From Clavelina lepadiformis (Eukaryota; Chordata; Ascidiacea; Aplousobranchia; Clavelinidae), in assembly GCF_947623445.1 (NCBI RefSeq), contig NC_135248.1, positions 12,595,820-12,659,819 on the forward strand: a stretch of DNA of 64,000 bases. The letters are read 5' to 3'. Both the position numbers and the translations under genes were made by a program. The notes under the pieces were generated by a model, which ran no database searches, was not told the DNA's origin, and was given only the letters and a program-made list of their open reading frames with translations. This document shows, one piece after another, positions 16,107 to 62,093 of the stretch. Each line of letters opens with the position of its first letter. Position 1 is the first letter of the stretch.

Positions 16107-18505
16107 CAGGGTGGTCCAAACCCTGGCACGCGGGCCGCATGCGGCCCGCGTGAAGCTTTTGTGCGGCCCGCGAACACTTTGTGGATGCCGGAATTATCAG
16201 TGCTAAATCCAAGGTTTAAAAATACACCTACGCTTTATAAATACATTACATTCGCCACAACCCTAAATAAGTCGTGCATAATCGGGTCAATAGGTAACTA
16301 TGAGGGAACAATGTCGGTTTGTGACGACACAAACGTGCGTTGATATTTTGCTTTTGTTGCTAGCGCAGAGTACACTCTCGAATTTGGTTGTAAATTAGCT
16401 GCAACTCGTTTATTTAGTCAAGGGGAAAAGTTTACTAAAAGCATGAGTGTCAAAAGAAAAGTGTCAGAGGAAAACAGAGAGTTCAATTCTACTTGGGAGG
16501 AAAGGTATTTTTTTGCCAATAGCAATGGTAAACCACAGTGTCTGGTTTGCTTGCAAGTTATTTCAGTGCCTAAAGAGTTTAATTTAAAGCGACATTACAG
16601 CACCATGCATGAGAAAAAATATGGCCAATACCATGGAACTTCTAGGGAAGCAATTTTGAAAGAGTTAAAGGGCAATTATTCCAAGCAAAAAAAAATGATT
16701 ATTGGTTTTTCCAAACCCGATTCAACTGCAGACCTTAAAGCTTCATACGAAGTTGCTCTAACGCTCGCAAAACATGGAAAAGCTTTTCGAGACGGGGAGA
16801 TTGTAAAAGAGTGTGCGATTAAGATGGCCCTTTCCTTTGGAGATAAAAAAATAGCCAAAAAATTTGAAAACGTTTCTTTATCTCATCAAACCGTTGCAAG
16901 AAGAGTGGCAGAATTGAGCGAAAACGTGACTGTGCAATTGAAAGACGTTGTTCAACAATGCAAGTACTTCTCTTTAGCCTTGGATGAAAGTACTGACATC
17001 AGTGACGTTTCCCAGCTTTTGGTTTTCATTCGCACTATTGATAAAAACTTTACTGTATTTGAAGAACTACTCAAGATATCTCCACTTCGTGGAACTACAA
17101 AAGGTATCGACATATATAACAGCCTTGCGTCTGTCGTTGATGCTTATGGAGGATTTGAGAAGTGTGCATGTGTTGTAACAGATGGTGCCAGGGCAATGAC
17201 AGGACGAAAGAGAGGACTAGTTGGCATTCTAAAAGATCATGGAGTGAACTGCCCAACATTGCATTGTATCATTCACCAAGAAGCACTATGTGCCAAAGTT
17301 TTGCAGATGAGTGATGTTATGCTTAGTGTGACGAATATAGTCAACATCATCAAAGGGGGAAACAGAGCCCAGAGACATAGAAAATTCATCCAGTTCTTAA
17401 AAGATGTGGGTGCAGAATATGAAGATGTTCCACTATTCTCAAAAATTCGATGGTTAAGTGCAGGCAAAACATTGAAACATTTCTTTTCTTTGCGAAAAGA
17501 AATACTGACATTTCTCCAGAATGAGATAGAAGGGACGACCGAGACATACCAGATTCAGTTGAGTGATGACAAGTTCATTGGTTCGTTGGCGTTCTTGACA
17601 GACATTAGTAATCACTTCAATATCCTAAACATGAAACTGCAAGGTAAGAAACAAAATATTTCTCAATTGGTTGGACACATTGAAGGTTTTCGCAAGAAAC
17701 TTGTGCTATTTAAGGCTTCTTTGCAAAGGAATGATGCTACCCACTTTCCTGCATGCAGTGAAGTACTTGGTGAAAGAAAAAGTATCGATTTTTCTGCATT
17801 TTCTAACAAAATTGGTGACATCATCGATGAGTTTAACGACAGATTCGCTGACTTTGATTTGCTGAAAGCACAAATGGAGCTTTTCAACAATCCAATGGAA
17901 ATAGTTATAGAATCCCAACCATCTTACGTTCAGCAAGAACTATGTGAATTGCAGTCAGACCCTTTTCTTCTTTCACGTAAGAATGAGCGTTACGACGCCT
18001 TTTGGAGGCTTTTAAGCAACGAACAGTTTCCACGATTAAACGACTTCGCACTGAAGATATGCTCCATGTTTGGTAGCACATACATATGTGAAAGCACTTT
18101 CTCCATTATGAAGCGATTAAAAAGCGACACACGGAACAGAATGGCTGATGAAACCCTGGATGCCTGCTTACGTCTGTCGACCACTGAATTTAAAGCAGAG
18201 ATCGACACCATATGCAAAAGCAAAAACGCAGAGTCGCAAGCAGAGATTAAAAAGTGAGTTAGGCGTGCAGCAAAACATTAGGTCGATCAGAACAGCAAAC
18301 TCAGTCCTTTCCTTTCATTCATTTCATTTCATTCATACAACTGTATTTTGTAAGCGACAAGATTTGTTAATGTTCATAGCCTGCGAACAGTAGTTAACAA
18401 CGTTTCTACTTTCAGCAACGCGTTATCATTTCTCACTATGCGGCCCGTGAAGTTTTTCTCAGACCCTAATGTGGCCCTTCATGTTCGCAGTCTTGGACCA
18501 CCCTG
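16107..18505 (+). mobile_element. hAT DNA transposon, 2,399 bp, apparently complete
   Basis: Both ends carry the 13-bp inverted repeat CAGGGTGGTCCAA, and both flanks carry the 8-bp duplication aactagtt (16099-16106, 18506-18513). A single uninterrupted 604-codon transposase lies inside. Just inside the left end, 16129-16150 is a perfect 22-bp GC-rich palindrome centred on gcatgc; GC-rich gcggcccg motifs also appear near the right end (18440-18447). Exact target duplications and an open transposase suggest a recent, possibly still mobile insertion. Confidence 0.95.
16443..18257 (+). CDS. hAT transposase (BED-type finger, Charlie/GTF2IRD2-like)
   Basis: Cut-and-paste transposase of 604 aa, unbroken from ATG to stop. 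An N-terminal BED/SPIN-type finger has C33-x2-C36 and H51-x4-H56. The hAT catalytic triad is visible as D181 (ALDESTD), D247 (VTDGARAMTG) and E550 (CESTFS); also present are the CxxH pair (C275/H278 in LHCIIHQE), the R336-W337 motif, and the C-terminal hATC dimerisation segment (FGSTYICESTFSIMKRLKS). This is the type from which vertebrate GTF2IRD2 C-termini and related FAM200/ZBED5-like genes were domesticated. Flanking TIRs and an 8-bp duplication show it is a transposon, not a host gene. All key residues are present, so activity is possible but untested. Confidence 0.95.
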   Translation: MSVKRKVSEENREFNSTWEERYFFANSNGKPQCLVCLQVISVPKEFNLKRHYSTMHEKKYGQYHGTSREAILKELKGNYSKQKKMIIGFSKPDSTADLKASYEVALTLAKHGKAFRDGEIVKECAIKMALSFGDKKIAKKFENVSLSHQTVARRVAELSENVTVQLKDVVQQCKYFSLALDESTDISDVSQLLVFIRTIDKNFTVFEELLKISPLRGTTKGIDIYNSLASVVDAYGGFEKCACVVTDGARAMTGRKRGLVGILKDHGVNCPTLHCIIHQEALCAKVLQMSDVMLSVTNIVNIIKGGNRAQRHRKFIQFLKDVGAEYEDVPLFSKIRWLSAGKTLKHFFSLRKEILTFLQNEIEGTTETYQIQLSDDKFIGSLAFLTDISNHFNILNMKLQGKKQNISQLVGHIEGFRKKLVLFKASLQRNDATHFPACSEVLGERKSIDFSAFSNKIGDIIDEFNDRFADFDLLKAQMELFNNPMEIVIESQPSYVQQELCELQSDPFLLSRKNERYDAFWRLLSNEQFPRLNDFALKICSMFGSTYICESTFSIMKRLKSDTRNRMADETLDACLRLSTTEFKAEIDTICKSKNAESQAEIKK

Positions 18506-20532: not shown

Positions 20533-21801
20533 TCAAATTGTAAGGTTGTCAAGGTCTGTGTTTAAATCACCTTCTTCATCTTCCTGTAGAACCAACTCTG
20601 CTGCCTGCTCAATAAAGTGAATGTCTAAATTAAGGTCTTGTTTTGTCAAAGCTATATCATCCAACAATTGTGCTACATGTGTCATATTTTCATGGCCATT
20701 TGGTGCCTTTTGTAACCAAACACAGTAGTCCGTTACATATAGATCATTCAGAATATTGCATGGAGAAGTGTCTGCAGTGTTAAAAATACCCCATACACGA
20801 AGCAAGCAGTGTAGAATATGTCGAGTACCACGTTTAAAAAGTTCTGCAACATCATGTTTAACTTTATTCGATAAATTCCAATTCCTGTATAATGGATAAC
20901 ACAATGATCTTCGAAAACAAGCAACTATTGTTTCCTGAATACTTCTGCTCGTATCAAACCAAGAAAAAGTGGGACTGATTGTCTTAATGGTCCACGAAGA
21001 TTCAATATTATGCTCCCCATTTGTGGTATAAACATCATATACGTATGCAAATAGGATATCAACAAGACCGCAAAGTACAATTTGGTGTTCCTCTTTATCA
21101 AGTAAATAATCACGATTAGGTAATTTTTGCAGTACAACGTTATCTTCTTGTGTAAAACTGACAGGCTCACTGCTGGTCCACCAAGGTGTGAAAGAAAGTA
21201 ATTTCTCAATTTCTTTGTTTTCATATAAGTCTGCTAAATAGTAATCCGAATCAAATTTGTCCTCTTCGCATTTCTCTCTTAGCTCAGCTCTTTCCTTCAC
21301 ATCAACGAGATCCGGATCAGCAATACTCACCAGATGACAAAACTCTTCCTTATATAGCACATTGAATTTTTTATTGGCAAATCCATACCCACATGTGGTT
21401 TTAAATCCACATTTAACAGATAAACTCTCGTTTGTCAAATAAACCTTTTTCGTGGCAGATTTCGTATCATCTTCTAAAATTTCTACTGAAGGAATTTTGC
21501 AAGTTTTTTCTACTTTATTCAAAATTAAATTTAGGAATTCCAATTTTGGAAAATATTGACCCTTTATCAGTTTTGGAATGGAAATGGAATAAGCTCCATC
21601 ATCGGCAATGTACTCACAGAGTGATCCTTCTTCTTGTAGACTTTCCGGGAAATGGAGTCTCAACAAATATGGTTTAGCGTAAAAGACAAATTCATTGTCC
21701 TGTACAGTAATGTTAACATCTAAAACTTTGGTGTAAGGCGCAAAGATGATAACATGAATGGTATTCGGCTCTTGCCGCAGTTCAAAGCGTGGAGTCAGCA
21801 T
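20533..21801 (-). CDS. SHQ1: SHQ1, assembly chaperone of H/ACA ribonucleoproteins
   Basis: SHQ1 holds dyskerin (the pseudouridine synthase) in an RNA-free state before H/ACA snoRNP and telomerase RNP assembly. The 422-aa product is encoded in one uninterrupted exon. It starts with the CS/p23-like domain (MLTPRFELRQEP, VFYAKPYLLRLHFPESL), as in human SHQ1, followed by the SHQ1-specific alpha-helical domain (from about residue 165, including a conserved-type FGFANKKFNVLY-like segment and HILHCLLRVWGIFNT). It is shorter than human SHQ1 (577 aa), mainly at the acidic C-terminus. The start is supported by the conserved MLTP N-terminus. It is divergent with ECI1, whose start lies 861 bp away. Confidence 0.93.
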   Translation of the reverse strand: MLTPRFELRQEPNTIHVIIFAPYTKVLDVNITVQDNEFVFYAKPYLLRLHFPESLQEEGSLCEYIADDGAYSISIPKLIKGQYFPKLEFLNLILNKVEKTCKIPSVEILEDDTKSATKKVYLTNESLSVKCGFKTTCGYGFANKKFNVLYKEEFCHLVSIADPDLVDVKERAELREKCEEDKFDSDYYLADLYENKEIEKLLSFTPWWTSSEPVSFTQEDNVVLQKLPNRDYLLDKEEHQIVLCGLVDILFAYVYDVYTTNGEHNIESSWTIKTISPTFSWFDTSRSIQETIVACFRRSLCYPLYRNWNLSNKVKHDVAELFKRGTRHILHCLLRVWGIFNTADTSPCNILNDLYVTDYCVWLQKAPNGHENMTHVAQLLDDIALTKQDLNLDIHFIEQAAELVLQEDEEGDLNTDLDNLTI

Positions 21802-35656: not shown

Positions 35657-35692
35657 TCCTCTTTTCATGAAACTGGTCGAGGAGTAAGCATG
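35657..35692 (+). promoter_or_regulatory. RPL7A 5' leader: TOP-like pyrimidine start and 6-codon upstream ORF
   Basis: The run tcctcttttc (35657-35666) resembles the 5' terminal oligopyrimidine tract of ribosomal-protein mRNAs. It is followed at once by ATG AAA CTG GTC GAG GAG TAA (35667-35687), which ends 2 nt before the true ATG (35690-35692). If transcription starts in the pyrimidine tract, this short upstream ORF is in the mRNA. Confidence 0.5.
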
Positions 35693-38600
35693 GTAAGTCG
35701 TTTCATCTTATTATATCCATGCAATCGTTACTTGCAATGGTTTGAAAGTTGCTTATCTTGAATATTTACTACCTTAATTGTTGCCCTTTGCTTTATGTAA
35801 TGGTTTGGTAAATGTTAAAAGGGTTTGGCCGTGCGGTTTTTGTCTCGCAAATAATGATCAGATGTATTATTATAAATCTTAGCCAAAAGGAAAGAAATCG
35901 AGAAAGAAGGTGGCTCCTGCCCCACTCTTGGCCAAGAAGGCCATTGCTAAGAAAGTGGTAAACCCACTTTTTGAAAAGCGCCCCAAAAACTTTGGCATTG
36001 GTAAGAATAGAAAATTTATTTGCTACTGTAAAATATTTTAATCTTAAATTGCAAAGGTAATTTTTCCAGTTTTCATAAATGTTTTTAGGTTATTTTGTCA
36101 GTTTTCTTAAACTTGCAAGGTCAGTAACTAATCAACGTTACCCTCTGACAATAATTAAAAGTTGCACCCCATTTTTGATAATTAATGTCTAGCTAATGAT
36201 CAAATGTTGGACTAAACATGTGGTTAATAAAGATACTGCAAGTGCCTTCATAAAAGCAAAAGATACAAATAAAAATTTTAAAAGAATTACAAGTGGGTAT
36301 TAATGGCTTCGCAAACAAATTTTCTGGTGGCGCTGTAATTACATTCCATAAGATTAGTTTTCTTCATTTATATATGAAAAAAGGTGATAATGTTAAAATT
36401 GCATGGTGCTGTTCAACTATAGAAACCCTTCAGTCTCAGTTTTAAGCCAACCAATTGATCATGTATAGGGTGTATTACTGTACTGCGGTACTTTTCAGTA
36501 CCGTTACCATCGGTATTTCAAGTAAATTTGCAAGCGTTTAACGTCACATATGTTTTGGCCTAGAGCAGTGGCTCCCAAAATGTGGGCCATGGCACATTAC
36601 TAGGCCACCAAGACATTCTCAATGGGCCACAGAGCCACTTGAAAAGATTCTACTGTTTTGTTATACTGTAGATATTATGCGCTTTGTTTTGAAAAACATA
36701 ACATTTGCTTAAATTAAATTTTCAAAGTTATCGCTTGTGCCCAAATTTACAACACGTGGTGAGCCACGGATCACTTATAAATAGACATTTTGGCCACAGA
36801 CCAAAAAAATTTGGGAACCGCTGGCCTAGAGTAACCCTTACAGGAAGCATAATTGTGGCAAACATTGCATTTGCATCAGGATCTTTTACACAAAAAGTAC
36901 CGAACTAATTTTTTAGAATAATACGGTAACAGTCGGCACATTTTTCTCCAAGTACCGACTGCCCACTTCTGATAGTAGGTTCACTACAATCCTGAACAAA
37001 CTATCAACATAGTCTATTATATTTTTGTAGCATAACATTATCTTTTATTATCATTAACATTATTTATTTAAATATAGCTTTGTATGCACATTTTCCGTGC
37101 CAGTGTAAAAATATGCTTCCTTCACCCAATGGCAATAACTGCAAAAACTCGTGTTTAAGAGCTGGACCAAACTATAAACCTGTTTTGCATTATATAGGCC
37201 AGGATATCCAGCCAAAACGTGACCTCACACATTTTGTCAGATGGCCAAAGTACATCCGTCTTCAACGCCAGAAGGTCGTCCTTCAGCGACGTTTGAAGGT
37301 GCCACCAGCAGTCAATCAATTCTCTAGCACCCTTGACCGCCAAACTGGTATTAATTCTTGTAAATTGATAACATGTCAAAGAAGTTAGCTTGCCATCAGT
37401 GATGATTAACTTTAAAAAGACATTACTGTATGACTAAATAACCCTTACCTATGCTGAGAAGGCAAGTTAACGAAACTGTTAATCAACTATTTGACAACTT
37501 CGTTGCAAGTTTAACCTGTTTTCTTTAGATTAATCTCACTAAATTGCTGTCCCTTGCATTGGCTTATTTGCCTTGCAAGTTATTGGTCACCCTTGTTGAA
37601 AAACATTTGTGACTCCACAATGCAAAGTTGCACAAAACAAACCACAAATGCTTTGTCTTGGCAACTATTCTAAACTAGAGTATTGAGGTGTGCAATGAAC
37701 ATATCATGTTCATTCAACCTTGCATTGTGTAAAATTAATCTACAGCCACGTCACTTTTCCGACTGGCGAAGAAATATCAACCAGAAACCAAGATTGAGAA
37801 GAGAGAACGCTTGCGAAAGCGTGCTGAGGAAAGGTGAAGCACAAGTTTGAATAAGCGTAACTAGCGTTTGTTGACTCTAAACCACCGATGATGACTAACT
37901 AATTCTGCCAGTATTATACAGCCTGATAAACTGTAGATGCTATCAACATACCGTTTTATCTGAGGTGGTTTTTGCGTATATGAAATATATTACTAGTAAA
38001 CTGATTGGCAACAAGTTAAATCATTGCTTAATTGTACTTCAAACAGAGCCGCTGGAAAGCCAGACAAACCTACCCGTCGTCCAGTGGTCCTAGCAAGTGG
38101 AGTGAACACTGTCACCAACTTAATCGAGAGAAAGAAGGCTCAGCTGGTTGTGATCGCTCATGACGTTGAACCCATTGAGGTAAATACTTTGTAGTACAGA
38201 CGACAAACTTGTAAATGTATCATGATGTTATTGGAACGAGGCATTTGTCTTAGGTTGTGTAAAGAACTGCGTTGAAACCGTTTTGGCAACTTCTCTGTTC
38301 ACTCGCATAACACTGCTGTGTCAATGTTCACTCTGAGTAAAGTTCAACACCTACGCTTGACTTATCATAACAGTGAAGATGCTTTAATAAGTTTTACTCT
38401 TTTAGATCGTTATCTATCTTCCTGCACTTTGTCGCAAGATGAATGTGCCTTATTGCATTGTCAAGGGCAAGGCCAGACTTGGTCGTCTCGTTCATAGGAA
38501 AACCTGCACCTGTGTTGCGATAACCGATGTCAACAAGTAAGTCCCGTATTAGCTTTCCGGCTGAACATTCGGTGTCGATGATTACAGCAATATTTGCTAT

Positions 38601-39082
38601 CTTGATTAGTTTTACCACTATGATAACACAACCCCACCAAGATCTCTGAGACACCAACGCACTTACTACAATAAACTGCATCGGTATGTCATCCGTTCAT
38701 AAGAAACTTTATTTTCACAGCGAGGACAAGGGATCTCTGAGCAAGCTTATTGAAAGCGTCCGAACCAACTACAACGACCGATTTGACGAGGTAAGATCAT
38801 TACAGGCATTACTAGTGAATAAGGACATCATTATTGCTGTGATGTGAATTGAATTTCTTCACCTGAACTAAGCTGAAGAAGAGAAAGGCTTACTCTCTGA
38901 GCAATACCAGAATCGAGATTGTGTCGATATGAAAGGTTTAATTGTGCAAGTAATTTCTAATTGTCCGTTCACAGATACGTCGTCATTGGGGCGGTGGTGT
39001 CATGGGCAACAAGTCTGTTGCCAAAATCGCCAAGATTGAGAAATTGCGAGCGAAGGAAGCAACGCAGAAGGCTAACCTATGA
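35690..39082 (+). CDS. RPL7A: RPL7A (eL8), large-subunit ribosomal protein and snoRNA host
   Basis: eL8 sits on 25S/28S rRNA near the L7Ae-type kink-turn site. The start ATG alone forms the coding part of exon 1 (35690-35692), and exon 2 begins with codon 2. Exons 35883-36000, 37198-37347, 37746-37833, 38047-38179, 38406-38536, 38721-38790 and 38975-39082 complete 266 aa, the same length as the human protein. Signature segments include [73 protein letters not shown] (the L7Ae RNA-binding core) and [26 protein letters not shown] at 39096-39101 is the likely poly(A) signal. Introns 3, 4, 6 and 7 each carry a C/D snoRNA candidate, as vertebrate RPL7A introns do. Convergent with the FLASH-like gene. 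Confidence 0.98.
36566..36823. mobile_element. 258-bp hAT MITE in RPL7A intron 2
   Basis: The left end is CAGTGGCTCCCAAAATGTGGG and the reverse complement of the right end is CAGCGGTTCCCAAATTTTTTT. The 8-bp duplication gcctagag is exact at 36558-36565 and 36824-36831. It has no coding capacity. The surrounding intron (about 36465-36980) contains further ccggtac-like inverted sequence and may be an older, degraded element into which this one inserted. Confidence 0.88.
37384..37471 (+). ncRNA. Candidate C/D-box snoRNA in RPL7A intron 3
   Basis: The ends pair as an 11-bp stem (37384-37394 with 37461-37471, one G-U pair). Box C is a perfect GTGATGA (37399-37405) and box D is CTGA (37454-37457). 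The guide before box D contains CCCTTACCTA, complementary to UAGGUAAGGG, a segment I recall from the conserved 28S rRNA stretch AAUGUAGGUAAGGGAAGUCGGC. By the D+5 rule the target would be a G in that segment. Structure is strong; the target is from memory and not checked. Confidence 0.75.
37879..37971 (+). ncRNA. Candidate C/D-box snoRNA in RPL7A intron 4 (target unknown)
   Basis: A perfect 8-bp terminal stem (AAACCACC at 37879-37886 with GGTGGTTT at 37964-37971) brackets box C ATGATGA (37888-37894) and box D CTGA (37960-37963). An internal CTGA at 37923-37926 can serve as box D'. Neither guide (before D: ACATACCGTTTTAT; before D': AGTATTATACAGC) matched an rRNA segment I can recall, so it is an orphan in this reading. 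It fits the size (93 nt) and intronic placement of vertebrate RPL7A-hosted snoRNAs. Confidence 0.72.
38571..38655 (+). ncRNA. SNORD24: U24 (SNORD24) C/D-box snoRNA in RPL7A intron 6
   Basis: U24 guides 2'-O-methylation of two 28S rRNA cytidines. Ends pair as GGTGTC/GACACC (38571-38576, 38650-38655). Box C is TCGATGA-like and box D is CTGA at 38646-38649. Two guide elements match human U24 as I know it: AATATTTGCTATC before D' and CCACCAAGATC before D. They are complementary to the neighbouring 28S segments UAGCAAAUAUU and GAUCUUGGUGG. D' (cttga) and C' (tatgata) are degenerate. Vertebrate U24 is also hosted by RPL7A, so host and guest are conserved together. Confidence 0.92.
38832..38906 (+). 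ncRNA. U36-like C/D-box snoRNA in RPL7A intron 7
   Basis: A 6-bp terminal stem TATTGC/GCAATA (38832-38837, 38901-38906) encloses box C GTGATGT (38839-38845; one mismatch to RTGATGA) and box D CTGA (38897-38900). Box D' CTGA is at 38863-38866, and the 14-nt guide TTGAATTTCTTCAC before it is perfectly complementary to GUGAAGAAAUUCAA, a universally conserved 28S segment near GCGCGGGUAAACGGC. The D'+5 nucleotide pairs with an A, which fits the A methylation guided by U36 family members (SNORD36, yeast snR47). Human U36 copies also reside in RPL7A introns. Confidence 0.82.
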
Positions 39083-57636: not shown

Positions 57637-58641
57637 TCAAAATTCCAACAAGATTCGAAAATGTAAGTCAATTGTGGGGTTTTCCTCTTCAAAATATAAT
57701 TTCTCTTCAACGTGTAAACCATTCTCCTTCAAAAGTCTCACAAATTCTGCTTCCGACTCACCTTTCCATGGCCTGTGTGCATCTCGGACTTGGTAGGGTG
57801 TGACGTGGATGTGAAAGTCGGCTTTGGATAGAGGCGATTTCAAAAGAGCTCTTATAACATTTTCATCACATACCCAGTTATCCTCTTCTCCACTGTGGCC
57901 CCCATCCAACCACATCAACATCTTAATTCGATTGAGAAAGTCTATGTTTGGTTTGTCGAACTTCAGCGTGTCAGTTTCTTCTTCGTTAGGTTCGATTTCA
58001 CAGCAAGGATCAAAAGATGACACTTCATATAGGAATTGATTTAAAACTATGCAGCCTTTACTGAAGCCAGCCACAATGATGGGACACTCTTGTTTCAGAT
58101 AATCCTGATCGTACGGTTTGTTTGGAAGAATTTTGTTGATTGCATTCTTCATGATTAACTCAAGGTGGTTCAAGCCAAAATAGTTCTGCCTATGAGACGG
58201 TACCCCCATCACGGATTTGCTTTTCACAAAGTTTTTATAAACGCAAATAGTGTTGTAGGCTTTTTTGGATGGGGAAAGCAGCCATACGTGACTGTGCGGA
58301 AATTTATTGCAAATAAGGTTGATGGTATTTTCATAACTCCAATCAACATAGTCACGGCATTGATAGTTCTGTTTCATTTTATCCGTGAAGTCCTGTATGT
58401 CCCCAGGAAAGAATATGACATGTCCTTTAAATTCTTCCCTTTTTGGAAGCTGGCTTGATTGTGTGTTGTCACACCCTACTGGATTCTTTGGTGGTGCATA
58501 AGCAACTGTATTTTGACAACCCTCCACGCCTTCTATATCGAAAAGAGTTGCTATCTGTGCGAACGTCATTGTGGAAGTCCAGTTTGCAGGACCTAAATGG
58601 AGCAACCGGTGACAGTTTTTCTTGAACAACAGACTAACCAT
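57637..58641 (-). CDS. C2orf69: C2orf69 homologue (UPF0565 family), mitochondrial hydrolase-like protein
   Basis: A single-exon 334-aa protein matching the C2orf69 family in order: HVIFFPGDIQDF, a YVDWSYENTINLI segment, FPHSHVWLLSPSK, VYKNFVKSK, then GFSKGCIVLNQFLYEV, MLMWLDGGHSG, HIHVTPYQVRDAHRPW and the terminal IDLHFRILLEF. GFSKG resembles the nucleophile elbow of serine hydrolases and is the likely active site. Human C2orf69 is mitochondrial and its loss causes a severe autoinflammatory/mitochondrial disease; the substrate is not settled. The N-terminus (MVSLLFKKNCHRLLHLG) is basic and amphipathic, which fits mitochondrial import. It is downstream of PIGB on the same strand, 45 bp away, with an acceptor-like site between them, so it is probably expressed from an operon. 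Confidence 0.92.
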   Translation of the reverse strand: MVSLLFKKNCHRLLHLGPANWTSTMTFAQIATLFDIEGVEGCQNTVAYAPPKNPVGCDNTQSSQLPKREEFKGHVIFFPGDIQDFTDKMKQNYQCRDYVDWSYENTINLICNKFPHSHVWLLSPSKKAYNTICVYKNFVKSKSVMGVPSHRQNYFGLNHLELIMKNAINKILPNKPYDQDYLKQECPIIVAGFSKGCIVLNQFLYEVSSFDPCCEIEPNEEETDTLKFDKPNIDFLNRIKMLMWLDGGHSGEEDNWVCDENVIRALLKSPLSKADFHIHVTPYQVRDAHRPWKGESEAEFVRLLKENGLHVEEKLYFEEENPTIDLHFRILLEF

Positions 58642-58686
58642 CCATTAATTCTGTGACCAGAATCTGAAAAAAGCAAAAATAAAAGT
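58642..58686 (-). promoter_or_regulatory. Intercistronic trans-splice acceptor between PIGB and C2orf69
   Basis: Read on the minus strand, the PIGB stop TAG is followed directly by ACTTTTATTTTTGCTTTTTTCAG and then ATTCTGG (AG at 58665-58664). This is a strong pyrimidine tract and acceptor with no donor or AATAAA between the genes. It leaves a 22-nt leader before the C2orf69 ATG. Such compact junctions are typical of spliced-leader-resolved operons known in tunicates. Confidence 0.7.
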
Positions 58687-60396
58687 CTAATCTTCTTCAG
58701 GTTTTGTTCTGCATAGCACAAACATATTACTACCCACACGACCTTCGGGGAAGTGTGTGTGAAAATAACTTTGACATTTAATATAGCACGATGAAAAAAT
58801 ATGTCCATGTTTTTCGTAGAAAACATCAAAAAGAACAATTCGATTTGGTAAGTTCAAGCAGGAATCTTCAAAATTATTATACTCGCTAAAATTAAAGTTG
58901 TTTTTAAACCACTGCACTGGGTCCAAATAAAATTCATCAGCTTCATCAATATAACCCTCACGGTCATGAAAATCAGGGTCACAAGTTAAAAAACGCATGG
59001 AAATATTCCTATGTATGAAGCTGTGATATGGTGTTGAGTGACACGGCGTTAGAAATAAAACAGATGGCTGAGCAAGTGACATTTCTGAAGTTGTTACATG
59101 CGACTGAGGCAAAATTTCAACATTTTTTTGAAGAAATTTCATCACTTGATGAGGACCAGATTGGTGCACGAGGCCAAAATAAAGGGACAGTGGAATATTT
59201 GTCACAGCTAAAAAAATTAAGAAAAATATTCGTTTCTTTTTGCTTATGTATGATAACGATGTTCCAGAGAACAGGCAGAATATGGGGACAAGAGCTAAAA
59301 TAAATCTAAATTCCTTATGCCCAGGTATACTGTATATAAAAACAGTAAAAATCATAATTACCAGAAAAACATCAAACATGGATAAAGCAACATTTGTGCA
59401 TTGCAACTGCCCAGAAACTAAACATCGAGATTTTTTATCACAGTACAAAATCCACAAACCATGCGCTGAAAATGGTAAAATCGTACCAACAACTACAGGT
59501 AGGCCCTGAGAGAGGTACCAATGCCAAGCATGGCTACCATAAAAAGTACCCTGGTTGTTTATAATGTTAAACTTTAGGAAATTGTAATGTGGGCTGGTCC
59601 ATCTTCCATAGCACAGGTAATCAGCACCAAATGACAAAGTCAGCAAAACAAAACAGACTGCAATGATAGTTTTTAAAGACCGGAATACTGCGTAATAACT
59701 TTCAGTCTTCAACCTGTGAAGTAGTAAAACGTACAGAGGAATCCAAAGTGTAATACTAGTGGGCCTAACAACGGCAGCCAGTCCTGCTATACATGTAAAT
59801 ATTTTAAGATTCTGATCAAAATTGGTCTTCTGGTTGATATAGGCCAAAGGGTAAAAGTAAACAGCAATACAAAACAGAACAGCTTCCAATGTATTAATTA
59901 ATGTTCTAGTACAGCAATACCACCAGAACCATGACAGCGTCAGGCTTGCTATTGTCCACTTGGCAACCATTGCAGAAAACCAACTCTTGACGAATTTGTA
60001 AAAATACCACTCTGCTACAGCGCTCACAACCATCTGAAAAATTCGAGGCGCATATAACACACAGGTCTCACATCCGGCCCATTTTGTGAGTTGATACACA
60101 GATGAGAAGAGTAATGGATGAAGGTATGATCTTATTCCCACTTTCCATTCCCATGTTAAATATCCGTAATTATAAACCATATTGTGAGCGACCTCTAGTG
60201 ACTGCCAGTACTCGTCGGGCACAAACCAGGTCCGCACCAACATCATATTGACAGAACGAAGAATCAGTAAAATAGCTAGAACATGTTTGTCTTCAGATTT
60301 GGAGTGTTTTTGTTCCGGTTTTAACGATATCGGTGCTGGATCAAATTTCTCGGATAATCTTTTTCTTCGGTGAATTTGACGCATGGTTAGTCGCAA
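58687..60396 (-). CDS. PIGB: PIGB, GPI mannosyltransferase 3
   Basis: PIGB is an ER multi-spanning enzyme of glycosyltransferase family 22 that adds the third mannose, from dolichol-phosphate mannose, to GPI anchor precursors. The single exon encodes 569 aa (human 554). The family signature is clear: RTWFVPDEYWQSLEVAHNMV with the acidic DE pair in the first luminal loop, YLTWEWKVGIRSYLHPLLFS, and VVRPTSITLWIPLYVLLLH. Several hydrophobic spans follow, and PGHKEFRFILALVPIFCLFSG is the conserved late motif. A splice-acceptor-like TGATTCTCTCAG lies about 24 nt upstream of the ATG. C2orf69 follows almost without spacing. Confidence 0.95.
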   Translation of the reverse strand: MRLTMRQIHRRKRLSEKFDPAPISLKPEQKHSKSEDKHVLAILLILRSVNMMLVRTWFVPDEYWQSLEVAHNMVYNYGYLTWEWKVGIRSYLHPLLFSSVYQLTKWAGCETCVLYAPRIFQMVVSAVAEWYFYKFVKSWFSAMVAKWTIASLTLSWFWWYCCTRTLINTLEAVLFCIAVYFYPLAYINQKTNFDQNLKIFTCIAGLAAVVRPTSITLWIPLYVLLLHRLKTESYYAVFRSLKTIIAVCFVLLTLSFGADYLCYGRWTSPHYNFLKFNIINNQGTFYGSHAWHWYLSQGLPVVVGTILPFSAHGLWILYCDKKSRCLVSGQLQCTNVALSMFDVFLVIMIFTVFIYSIPGHKEFRFILALVPIFCLFSGTSLSYISKKKRIFFLIFLAVTNIPLSLYFGLVHQSGPHQVMKFLQKNVEILPQSHVTTSEMSLAQPSVLFLTPCHSTPYHSFIHRNISMRFLTCDPDFHDREGYIDEADEFYLDPVQWFKNNFNFSEYNNFEDSCLNLPNRIVLFDVFYEKHGHIFSSCYIKCQSYFHTHFPEGRVGSNMFVLCRTKPEED

Positions 60397-60647
60397 GTTT
60401 TAACTTTCTGAGAGAATCAGATTATCGTTAAGTCTCACCAGGATACTGAACTATACACTCCTTGTTAGTTAATATTGATATCAATGTTAACACCATGTTG
60501 AATTAAACGCTAAATAAGAAGACAATATGAAATTTATAAATTTTACCTGATTAAACATGTAAATAGTCATTAAATATGCAAATATGAACAACAATAAAGT
60601 GCAAGAAAACAAAATCTACATGATTAAAAATTGCCGTTAAATAAACT
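60397..60647 (-). other. Short spacer between the GDPD gene and PIGB
   Basis: 251 bp on the same transcribed strand. I see no canonical AATAAA for the upstream gene on the minus strand and one acceptor-like TGATTCTCTCAG before PIGB, so a longer polycistronic unit is possible but weakly supported. Confidence 0.35.
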
Positions 60648-62093
60648 TTAACTATTTCTGTAAAACATTTTCCTGGAACGAAGAATAGCTAACATTGAAA
60701 TAACACAACAAAGAAAATAAGTCGTTACCCATAGCACATGATATTCATGGGGCGTAGAAGCAAAAATAGGTTTTGTTAAATCGCGATGCATTTTTGGATC
60801 ATCCGAAATAACTGCATAAGCACCCTGGCACCAAGCCAAAGAATATGTCCACTCCGTAGATGAAGTGTAGGAAATTATTGATATATTATACATGTCTTTG
60901 TAGTGCCAAATGAGTCGTTCACTGAGAGTGTTATATTCCAGTATGAGCATTTTTATTTTTCTTGCAATGATGTTGCGAGTATTTGTCTCGGCTCCATAAA
61001 CCTGAACAAAACCCGGTGCAACATTCATGACGTATTCATTCATTGGCCCAGATATCCACATGACCTTGGACTGGTCGATCCTGCTTTTTAACACCGTTTC
61101 GACAATAACGGGAATGTAGTCTTGTATGTGGGGATTCCCCCAATCTCTAGGCATCCGAAGATCAAATATCAGCATCTTGTTGTTGAGCTTTGCCAAGTTC
61201 GCAAGATCCAGCAACGACATGATTTTCTGACGCATAATTTTATCCTTTTTTGACTTTGATAAACTGTGCACTGTACCGTATGGATTCTGATGTAAGAACC
61301 ATTTTCCAGCGTTAAGCTGCTTCAATTCAATCAGTTTGAAGGCTTCAGCGGCACGATACTGCCTGTCAGGAAAAACATCAGCCACATCGCTTGTACGTCG
61401 TAGTGTAACGTCATGTATTAAAAATGGAATCCCGTCCATAGACACTGCTACGTCAGCTTCATAGCCATCCACATTCGCATCATTTGCTTCTTGGAATGAT
61501 AGCAGGGTGTTTTCTGGAGCAAATTTAGGGTTACCCTTGTGCCCAAATATAAGGGGCTTTGGTAAATCATGTATATTGTCCTTGATGCACGGTGAGATTA
61601 ATACATTGGGAATCAACAACAAAATGATGTAATAGCAACAATAAAACACAAGAAATTGAGTTGTGCAATAATCACGCATCCAAAACACTTTGAAACAAAT
61701 GAAAATGATTGACAATATCAAAGCAAACGCATGCAAATATGGCCATGTCAACGAGAAAAAAAGCTTAACTGTCTGCAATTCTGGTCGCCAGATCGCAGCA
61801 ATGACACCATAGCCAATGGTTGCTATGATTGCTGTGGCGATTGCAAAAAGATTAGCACATCTAATGCGTCTCTTTGCAAATTTTATGTTGAGAATGCAAC
61901 TACCTAAAAGAAATGCGTGGACAAGAAATACAAATGCAGTCAGATAGAGAATTAGAGTTGACCAGTTGAACCAAAACCCCAGGTGTTCATACAGCGACTT
62001 GTTGAATATGACGTAGTCATTGCTCACTGCAACCCAACAATACAAATACAGTGAAACCAATAAGAGCATCAGGCATTGCACCAAAATTATCAT
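60648..62093 (-). CDS. GDE2/GDE3-type membrane glycerophosphodiester phosphodiesterase (GDPD5/GDPD2/GDPD4 group)
   Basis: A 481-aa, single-exon ORF. The N-terminal half has six or so hydrophobic segments, followed by an extracellular GDPD catalytic domain with FGHKGNPKFAPENTLLSF, VDGYEADVAVSMDGIPFLIHD (Glu-x-Asp and His-Asp metal/catalytic residues) and LKQLNAGKWF, then a last membrane span. The topology and PENTL, DGVPFL, NAGQWFL-type motifs match vertebrate GDPD2/4/5; these release glycerol or cleave GPI anchors at the cell surface. The first catalytic motif reads GHKG rather than the usual GHRG. Compared with GDPD5 it lacks a ~30-residue cytosolic N-terminus; the ATG sits directly at an acceptor-like CACAG, so an upstream exon may exist. 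Start uncertain; family certain. Confidence 0.88.
   Translation of the reverse strand: MIILVQCLMLLLVSLYLYCWVAVSNDYVIFNKSLYEHLGFWFNWSTLILYLTAFVFLVHAFLLGSCILNIKFAKRRIRCANLFAIATAIIATIGYGVIAAIWRPELQTVKLFFSLTWPYLHAFALILSIIFICFKVFWMRDYCTTQFLVFYCCYYIILLLIPNVLISPCIKDNIHDLPKPLIFGHKGNPKFAPENTLLSFQEANDANVDGYEADVAVSMDGIPFLIHDVTLRRTSDVADVFPDRQYRAAEAFKLIELKQLNAGKWFLHQNPYGTVHSLSKSKKDKIMRQKIMSLLDLANLAKLNNKMLIFDLRMPRDWGNPHIQDYIPVIVETVLKSRIDQSKVMWISGPMNEYVMNVAPGFVQVYGAETNTRNIIARKIKMLILEYNTLSERLIWHYKDMYNISIISYTSSTEWTYSLAWCQGAYAVISDDPKMHRDLTKPIFASTPHEYHVLWVTTYFLCCVISMLAILRSRKMFYRNS

Follow-up and report, generated by a model that had tools for sequence, protein, structure and literature searches.

Four candidate box C/D snoRNA genes in introns of the RPL7A gene of the ascidian Clavelina lepadiformis

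Results

Introns 3, 4, 6, and 7 of the RPL7A gene of Clavelina lepadiformis very probably host four intron-encoded box C/D snoRNA genes, judging from the sequence of the locus. Two of these predicted genes could be assigned to families, SNORD24 (U24) in intron 6 and SNORD36 (U36) in intron 7, and two, which we refer to as unit 1 (intron 3) and unit 2 (intron 4), are without a family. Most likely, all four putative genes are functional. The locus was analyzed within a stretch of 64,000 nucleotides, called the window here (contig NC_135248.1, positions 12,595,820 to 12,659,819, assembly GCF_947623445.1), and the coordinates in Table 1 are counted from its first nucleotide. The genome used for whole-genome searches comprises 209 Mb in 95 contigs; no vertebrate genome is known to be as small, and this size, like the ~76% identity of L7a to its best structural match, agrees with the placement outside vertebrates by an earlier, sequence-only reading of this DNA.

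Table 1. Coordinates of the RPL7A gene, its four C/D units, and the structured part of intron 3 in the window
Feature	Position	Strand	Box C	Box D'	Box D	Terminal stem (pairs, counted by eye)	Box D to last intron base (nt)	Remarks
RPL7A (eL8) host gene	35690..39082	+						8 exons; gene model and PDB sequence match
RPL7A exons	35690-35692, 35883-36000, 37198-37347, 37746-37833, 38047-38179, 38406-38536, 38721-38790, 38975-39082	+						
Unit 1, intron 3	37385..37470	+	GUGAUGA 37399-37405		37454-37457	12/13	288	D guide AACCCUUACCUAUG
Intron 3 tail	37471..37745	+						Highly structured; between unit 1 and 3' splice site
Unit 2, intron 4	37879..37971	+	AUGAUGA 37888-37894	CUGA 37923-37926	37960-37963	8	83	
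SNORD24 (U24), intron 6	38571..38655	+	AUGAUUA 38578-38584	CUUGA 38601-38605	38646-38649	6	71	
SNORD36 (U36C-type), intron 7	38832..38906	+	GUGAUGU 38839-38845	CUGA 38863-38866	38897-38900	6	74	

The RPL7A gene model was rebuilt from the sequence. All introns run from GT to AG, exon 1 contributes only the start methionine to the coding sequence, and the reading frame of 801 nt, stop codon included, encodes 266 amino acids. When the protein was compared with solved structures, the top match was a chain of 60S ribosomal protein L7a (E = 5.7e-133), with identity in 200 of 264 aligned columns, one of which is a gap (~76%). By these scores, the protein lies nearest to L7a chains of animals. The earlier reading had placed one C/D unit in each of the four introns, and the intron numbers and coordinates that it gave are correct according to the rebuilt model.

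Several other features were observed in the window and in the assembly. RPL7A shares the window with SHQ1, C2orf69, an Alg9-like mannosyltransferase, and a GDPD gene (20533-21801 and 57637-62093, both on the minus strand); SHQ1 is an H/ACA snoRNP assembly factor. Intron 2 of RPL7A contains a 258-bp non-autonomous hAT-like element (36566-36823, or 36558-36831 with its duplications), which has the ends CAGTGGCTCCCAAA and TTTGGGAACCGCTG and is flanked on both sides by the 8-bp target duplication GCCTAGAG. A possible hAT transposase is encoded by a 604-aa open frame (16443-18257, plus strand) with matches to hAT dimerisation and zinc-finger domains. Elsewhere in the assembly, the 5.2-kb contig L028 (G000:C50; 16% G+C) has CCCCAAA repeats at its beginning and GGGGTTT repeats at its end, resembling a telomere-bearing minichromosome from another organism, and contig L018 (7.5 kb, 12% G+C) may be foreign DNA too. 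We rejected both as mitochondrial pieces: a tRNA search with the bacterial code returned none, and for L018 genetic code 5 gave no long frames (three of at least 80 aa, the longest of 106 aa). COX1 had no match in the assembly. GH6, a marker of tunicates among animals, had none either, and the controls of that search were equally silent.

To be called in our scan, a C/D candidate needed a box C with at most one mismatch, a CTGA 45 to <120 nt further on, and a closing stem score of at least 5.5; these criteria and the threshold were chosen with the four units in view. The scan of the window returned three candidates on the minus strand and five on the plus strand, four of which are the RPL7A units, bearing out the proposal of one unit per intron. 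In each of the four, RUGAUGA and CUGA sequences are joined by a terminal stem. Box C is free of mismatches in units 1 and 2 and carries one in each of SNORD24 and SNORD36. The earlier reading gave stems of 6 to 11 bp, a range that holds for unit 2, SNORD24, and SNORD36 but is exceeded by unit 1 (Table 1). When introns 1 to 7 were dinucleotide shuffled, a match appeared in 0, 5, 8, 3, 0, 0, and 8 of 1,000 shuffles, respectively. A fifth unit was considered in intron 5 and rejected: ATGATGT (38222) and CTGA (38333) are present, yet no stem between them scored at least 4.5, and the folding of the intron is not unusual (z = +1.47; of 200 shuffles, 187 equalled or exceeded its stability).

A covariance search of the window against Rfam (cmscan), which the earlier reading had named as a check, yielded two matches at the gathering level. 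SNORD24 (RF00069) scored 49.3 bits against a cut-off of 41 (E = 1.5e-5, 38573-38653), and SNORD36 (RF00049) scored 34.2 bits against a cut-off of 30, a margin of 4.2 bits (E = 0.11 for 64 kb, 38834-38905). Relatives of U24 and U36 had been proposed, and both hold by their family cut-offs, the latter only as a 28S guide of the U36C type. Between 35401 and 39480, Rfam gave 11 rows with an E value of at most 5, and the nine beyond SNORD24 and SNORD36 all lie at least 13.8 bits under their cut-offs. Within that limit on E, no family cut-off was reached by unit 1 (SNORD70, 24.9 versus 50 bits) or unit 2 (snoR77Y, 23.4 versus 52 bits). Six pairwise comparisons gave no sign of duplication among the four units beyond box-preserving shuffles; the most alike pair, units 1 and 2, was equalled by 46 of 500 box-preserving and 20 of 500 full shuffles.

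The guides of each unit were compared with 28S targets in the form of yeast 25S segments, which stood in for the genome's own 28S, and 300 shuffled guides served as controls. Aligned to the family consensus, SNORD24 keeps both of its 28S guides (human C2338 and C2352). Its D guide formed 12 pairs with yeast 25S, with C at position +5, and was equalled by none of the 300 shuffled guides; its D' guide also formed 12 pairs and was equalled by 5 of 300, and a C falls at its +5 position provided that the box is taken to begin with the first letter of CUUGA. The D guide would direct methylation of the 28S residue corresponding to human C2338, and the D' guide that of C2352 and/or G2351. The single mismatch of box C to the RUGAUGA consensus (AUGAUUA) falls at a conserved position whose G normally pairs with box D. 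Human U24 has CUGA as its D' box, whereas Clavelina SNORD24 has CUUGA. When human U24 was assayed in yeast, a U added within its D' box (CUGA to CUUGA) is reported to have left the methylation site unmoved, while a U inserted between the guide and the box shifted the site by one (PMC5389607). A published table assigns human Gm2351 to U24 (PMC8817022). Because of the insertion result and this table entry, C2352, G2351, or both are possible sites for the D' guide. A genome-wide search for the family, which scored 59 of 105871 first-look candidates, reported one SNORD24 match.

The D' guide of SNORD36, which corresponds to the U36C function at 28S A3703, is kept according to the consensus alignment. 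It formed 14 Watson-Crick pairs with yeast 25S, with A at +5, and none of the 300 shuffled guides equalled it; it would accordingly be predicted to guide methylation of the 28S equivalent of human A3703. The D guide to 18S A668 (U36A function) is absent, as the sequence before box D is GGCUUACUCU versus the consensus GAGCUUUUUAAC, and the 18S of this genome does contain the target of that guide, GTTAAAAAGCTC. On yeast 25S, the present D guide had no clear target (35 of 300 shuffles as good). A separate A668 guide, sought in the genome as the consensus guide followed by 0 to 2 nt and CTGA, was found nowhere by this exact pattern, which variants would escape. In human, U36A and U36C guide 18S A668 and 28S A3703, respectively, and for chicken both functions are described as predicted for one snoRNA (PMC2653536). 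The DNA of SNORD36 matches only its own locus in the genome. The genome-wide family search for SNORD36 reported nothing, the window's own copy included (70 of 56992 candidates scored); therefore, such family searches can miss copies.

Units 1 and 2, which the earlier reading suggested may be lineage-specific, were likewise found as DNA in the genome only at their own places. The D guide of unit 1 formed a 12-bp duplex (10 Watson-Crick and 2 wobble pairs) with the SNORD34 region of 28S in its animal form, a fragment that was knowingly added to the target set for this test, and 2 of 300 shuffles did as well. The yeast form of the region scored 8.5 versus 11 for the animal form. In comparison with SNORD34 and snR62, the duplex overlaps the region of U2824 and has a G, not U2824, at +5. 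Unit 1 may mark this G of 28S, which lies four nucleotides 3' to the SNORD34 site and is not known to be methylated. The presumed D' guide of unit 1 had no clear target on yeast 25S (200 of 300 shuffles as good). The guides of unit 2 did no better on yeast 25S than shuffled guides (251 and 200 of 300). Against the visible 18S and spacer (4 of 20 rDNA stretches), the best scores of the guides were 8.0 to 11.5, with no shuffle control for these values, and none was convincing. The top score of that search, from the D' guide of unit 2, was rejected, as its match begins 9 nt away from the box and falls on the complement of the 18S strand. Unit 2 is a predicted orphan, without an assigned target.

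The spacing of unit 1 to the end of its intron is far greater than that of the other three units (Table 1). Words resembling a branch point, by a loose pattern of our own setting, occur 243 nt downstream of unit 1, 33/60 nt downstream of unit 2, 46 nt downstream of SNORD24, and 36/55 nt downstream of SNORD36. C/D snoRNAs are reported to be optimally placed when the branch point follows ~50 nt downstream, with exceptions known (PMC8162545). The tail of intron 3 (37470-37745, 276 nt) has a minimum free energy (MFE) of -77 kcal/mol, whereas its shuffles average -49.9 (z = -5.76), and none of 200 was as stable. The exterior path in its MFE fold runs through 23 of the 276 nt, against 16, 24, and 14 nt for the tails of unit 2, SNORD24, and SNORD36. 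The final bases of the intron are paired in the MFE fold, and the last three are free in the centroid fold. The segment 37500-37745 has a single match in the genome, itself, and holds inverted repeats.

Discussion

With its four guests, RPL7A of Clavelina is an ordinary further example of a known snoRNA-host arrangement. From what is known of such genes, the excised intron would be trimmed once C/D proteins bind the k-turn, releasing the snoRNA, which would then direct fibrillarin to 2'-O-methylate rRNA.

The history of the two family-assigned guests admits two explanations, each compatible with four genes in RPL7A. An old host-guest association had been put forward from the sequence. The vertebrate host is indeed the same, but the intron numbers differ: SNORD24 is assigned to intron 6 in Clavelina and, as published, to intron 2 in human (PMC3412847) and to intron 1 in a table for chicken. 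By the numbering of that chicken source, intron 1 of RPL7A carries U24, and its introns 3 and 4 carry U36 (PMC2653536); four sponges are reported to carry SNORD24 in intron 3 of RPL5 (PMC3412847). None of the literature matches listed, mostly from outside subscription journals, described an invertebrate RPL7A with U24 or U36. A vertebrate study describes snoRNA genes in different introns or hosts across species (PMC3349704), and at eukaryote depth the snoRNAs of equivalent, deeply conserved introns are reported as non-orthologous, with conservation failing at the level of the intron (PMC3511168). Because snoRNAs are reported to move between introns and hosts, sharing of a host is suggestive, not proof, of old residence.

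Under the first explanation, SNORD24 and SNORD36 were already guests of RPL7A in the ancestor shared with vertebrates and have stayed there, hopping only between its introns. Its probability we place somewhat short of even: both families share their host with chicken, and SNORD24 shares it with human too, with no second SNORD24 reported in the genome among the 59 of 105871 candidates scored, but intron 6 stands against human intron 2, four sponges have RPL5 as the host (PMC3412847), and movement of snoRNAs is documented (PMC3511168, PMC3349704). Under the second explanation, the two entered RPL7A independently in this lineage, by a constrained drift in which ribosomal protein genes with their high expression are the preferred hosts. 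The different intron number of SNORD24 in human and the RPL5 host in sponges (PMC3412847) favour such entry, as do the non-orthologous guests of equivalent introns across eukaryotes (PMC3511168). Set against it is the coincidence of two matching families in one of ~79 ribosomal protein genes, an argument reasoned rather than computed, and we give independent entry the same probability as the first explanation.

A reading in which only SNORD24 and SNORD36 are real genes, and the two units without a family merely resemble C/D genes by chance or are dead copies, is very improbable, since the scores of these units below every Rfam cut-off, the shuffled-level performance of unit 2's guides on yeast 25S (251 and 200 of 300), and the distance of unit 1 from its 3' splice site are outweighed by perfect C and D boxes, the top two stem scores among the four, matches in only 8 and 3 of 1,000 shuffles of introns 3 and 4, a spacing of unit 2 to its intron end (83 nt) nearly that of the assigned units, and the 12-bp duplex of unit 1's D guide (2 of 300 shuffles), whose matching fragment was added knowingly.

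Within the preferred reading of four genes, the stable tail of intron 3 could, in the folded model, shorten the gap between unit 1 and the intron end. The tail may serve unit 1, may be what is left of an old inverted repeat after decay, or may regulate splicing. A more elaborate proposal is that unit 1 would be a new guide for a 28S G, its unusual position in the intron made workable by the fold of a single-copy tail (276 nt reduced to ~23 nt) that holds the 3' splice site, with snoRNA assembly tied to RPL7A splicing; we consider this unlikely.

Clavelina provides a further animal genome in which to ask whether guides stay with their host or drift between highly expressed hosts. Its natural CUUGA D' box and the missing 18S guide of SNORD36 suggest that guide function can change while the family is still recognisable.

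The closest known system is vertebrate RPL7A, with which the Clavelina gene shares its identity as host, four guests as reported for human (PMC7277114), the U24 and U36 families, and 28S guides. Unlike its vertebrate counterparts, it has SNORD24 in intron 6 instead of intron 2, a single U36C-type unit instead of several U36 copies, and two units without a family. In the sponges, SNORD24 is hosted by RPL5, and one guide is described as not conserved in three Suberites species (PMC3412847), whereas both guides are kept in Clavelina. The CUUGA box has the same form as that of the engineered U24 described in PMC5389607; in Clavelina it occurs naturally. Finally, intron 3 resembles the SNORD2-bearing intron of EIF4A2 (PMC10324135) in the stable fold of its 3' part up to the intron end. 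In EIF4A2, the snoRNA itself pairs with the intron, whereas in RPL7A intron 3 the fold forms within the stretch that follows the snoRNA.
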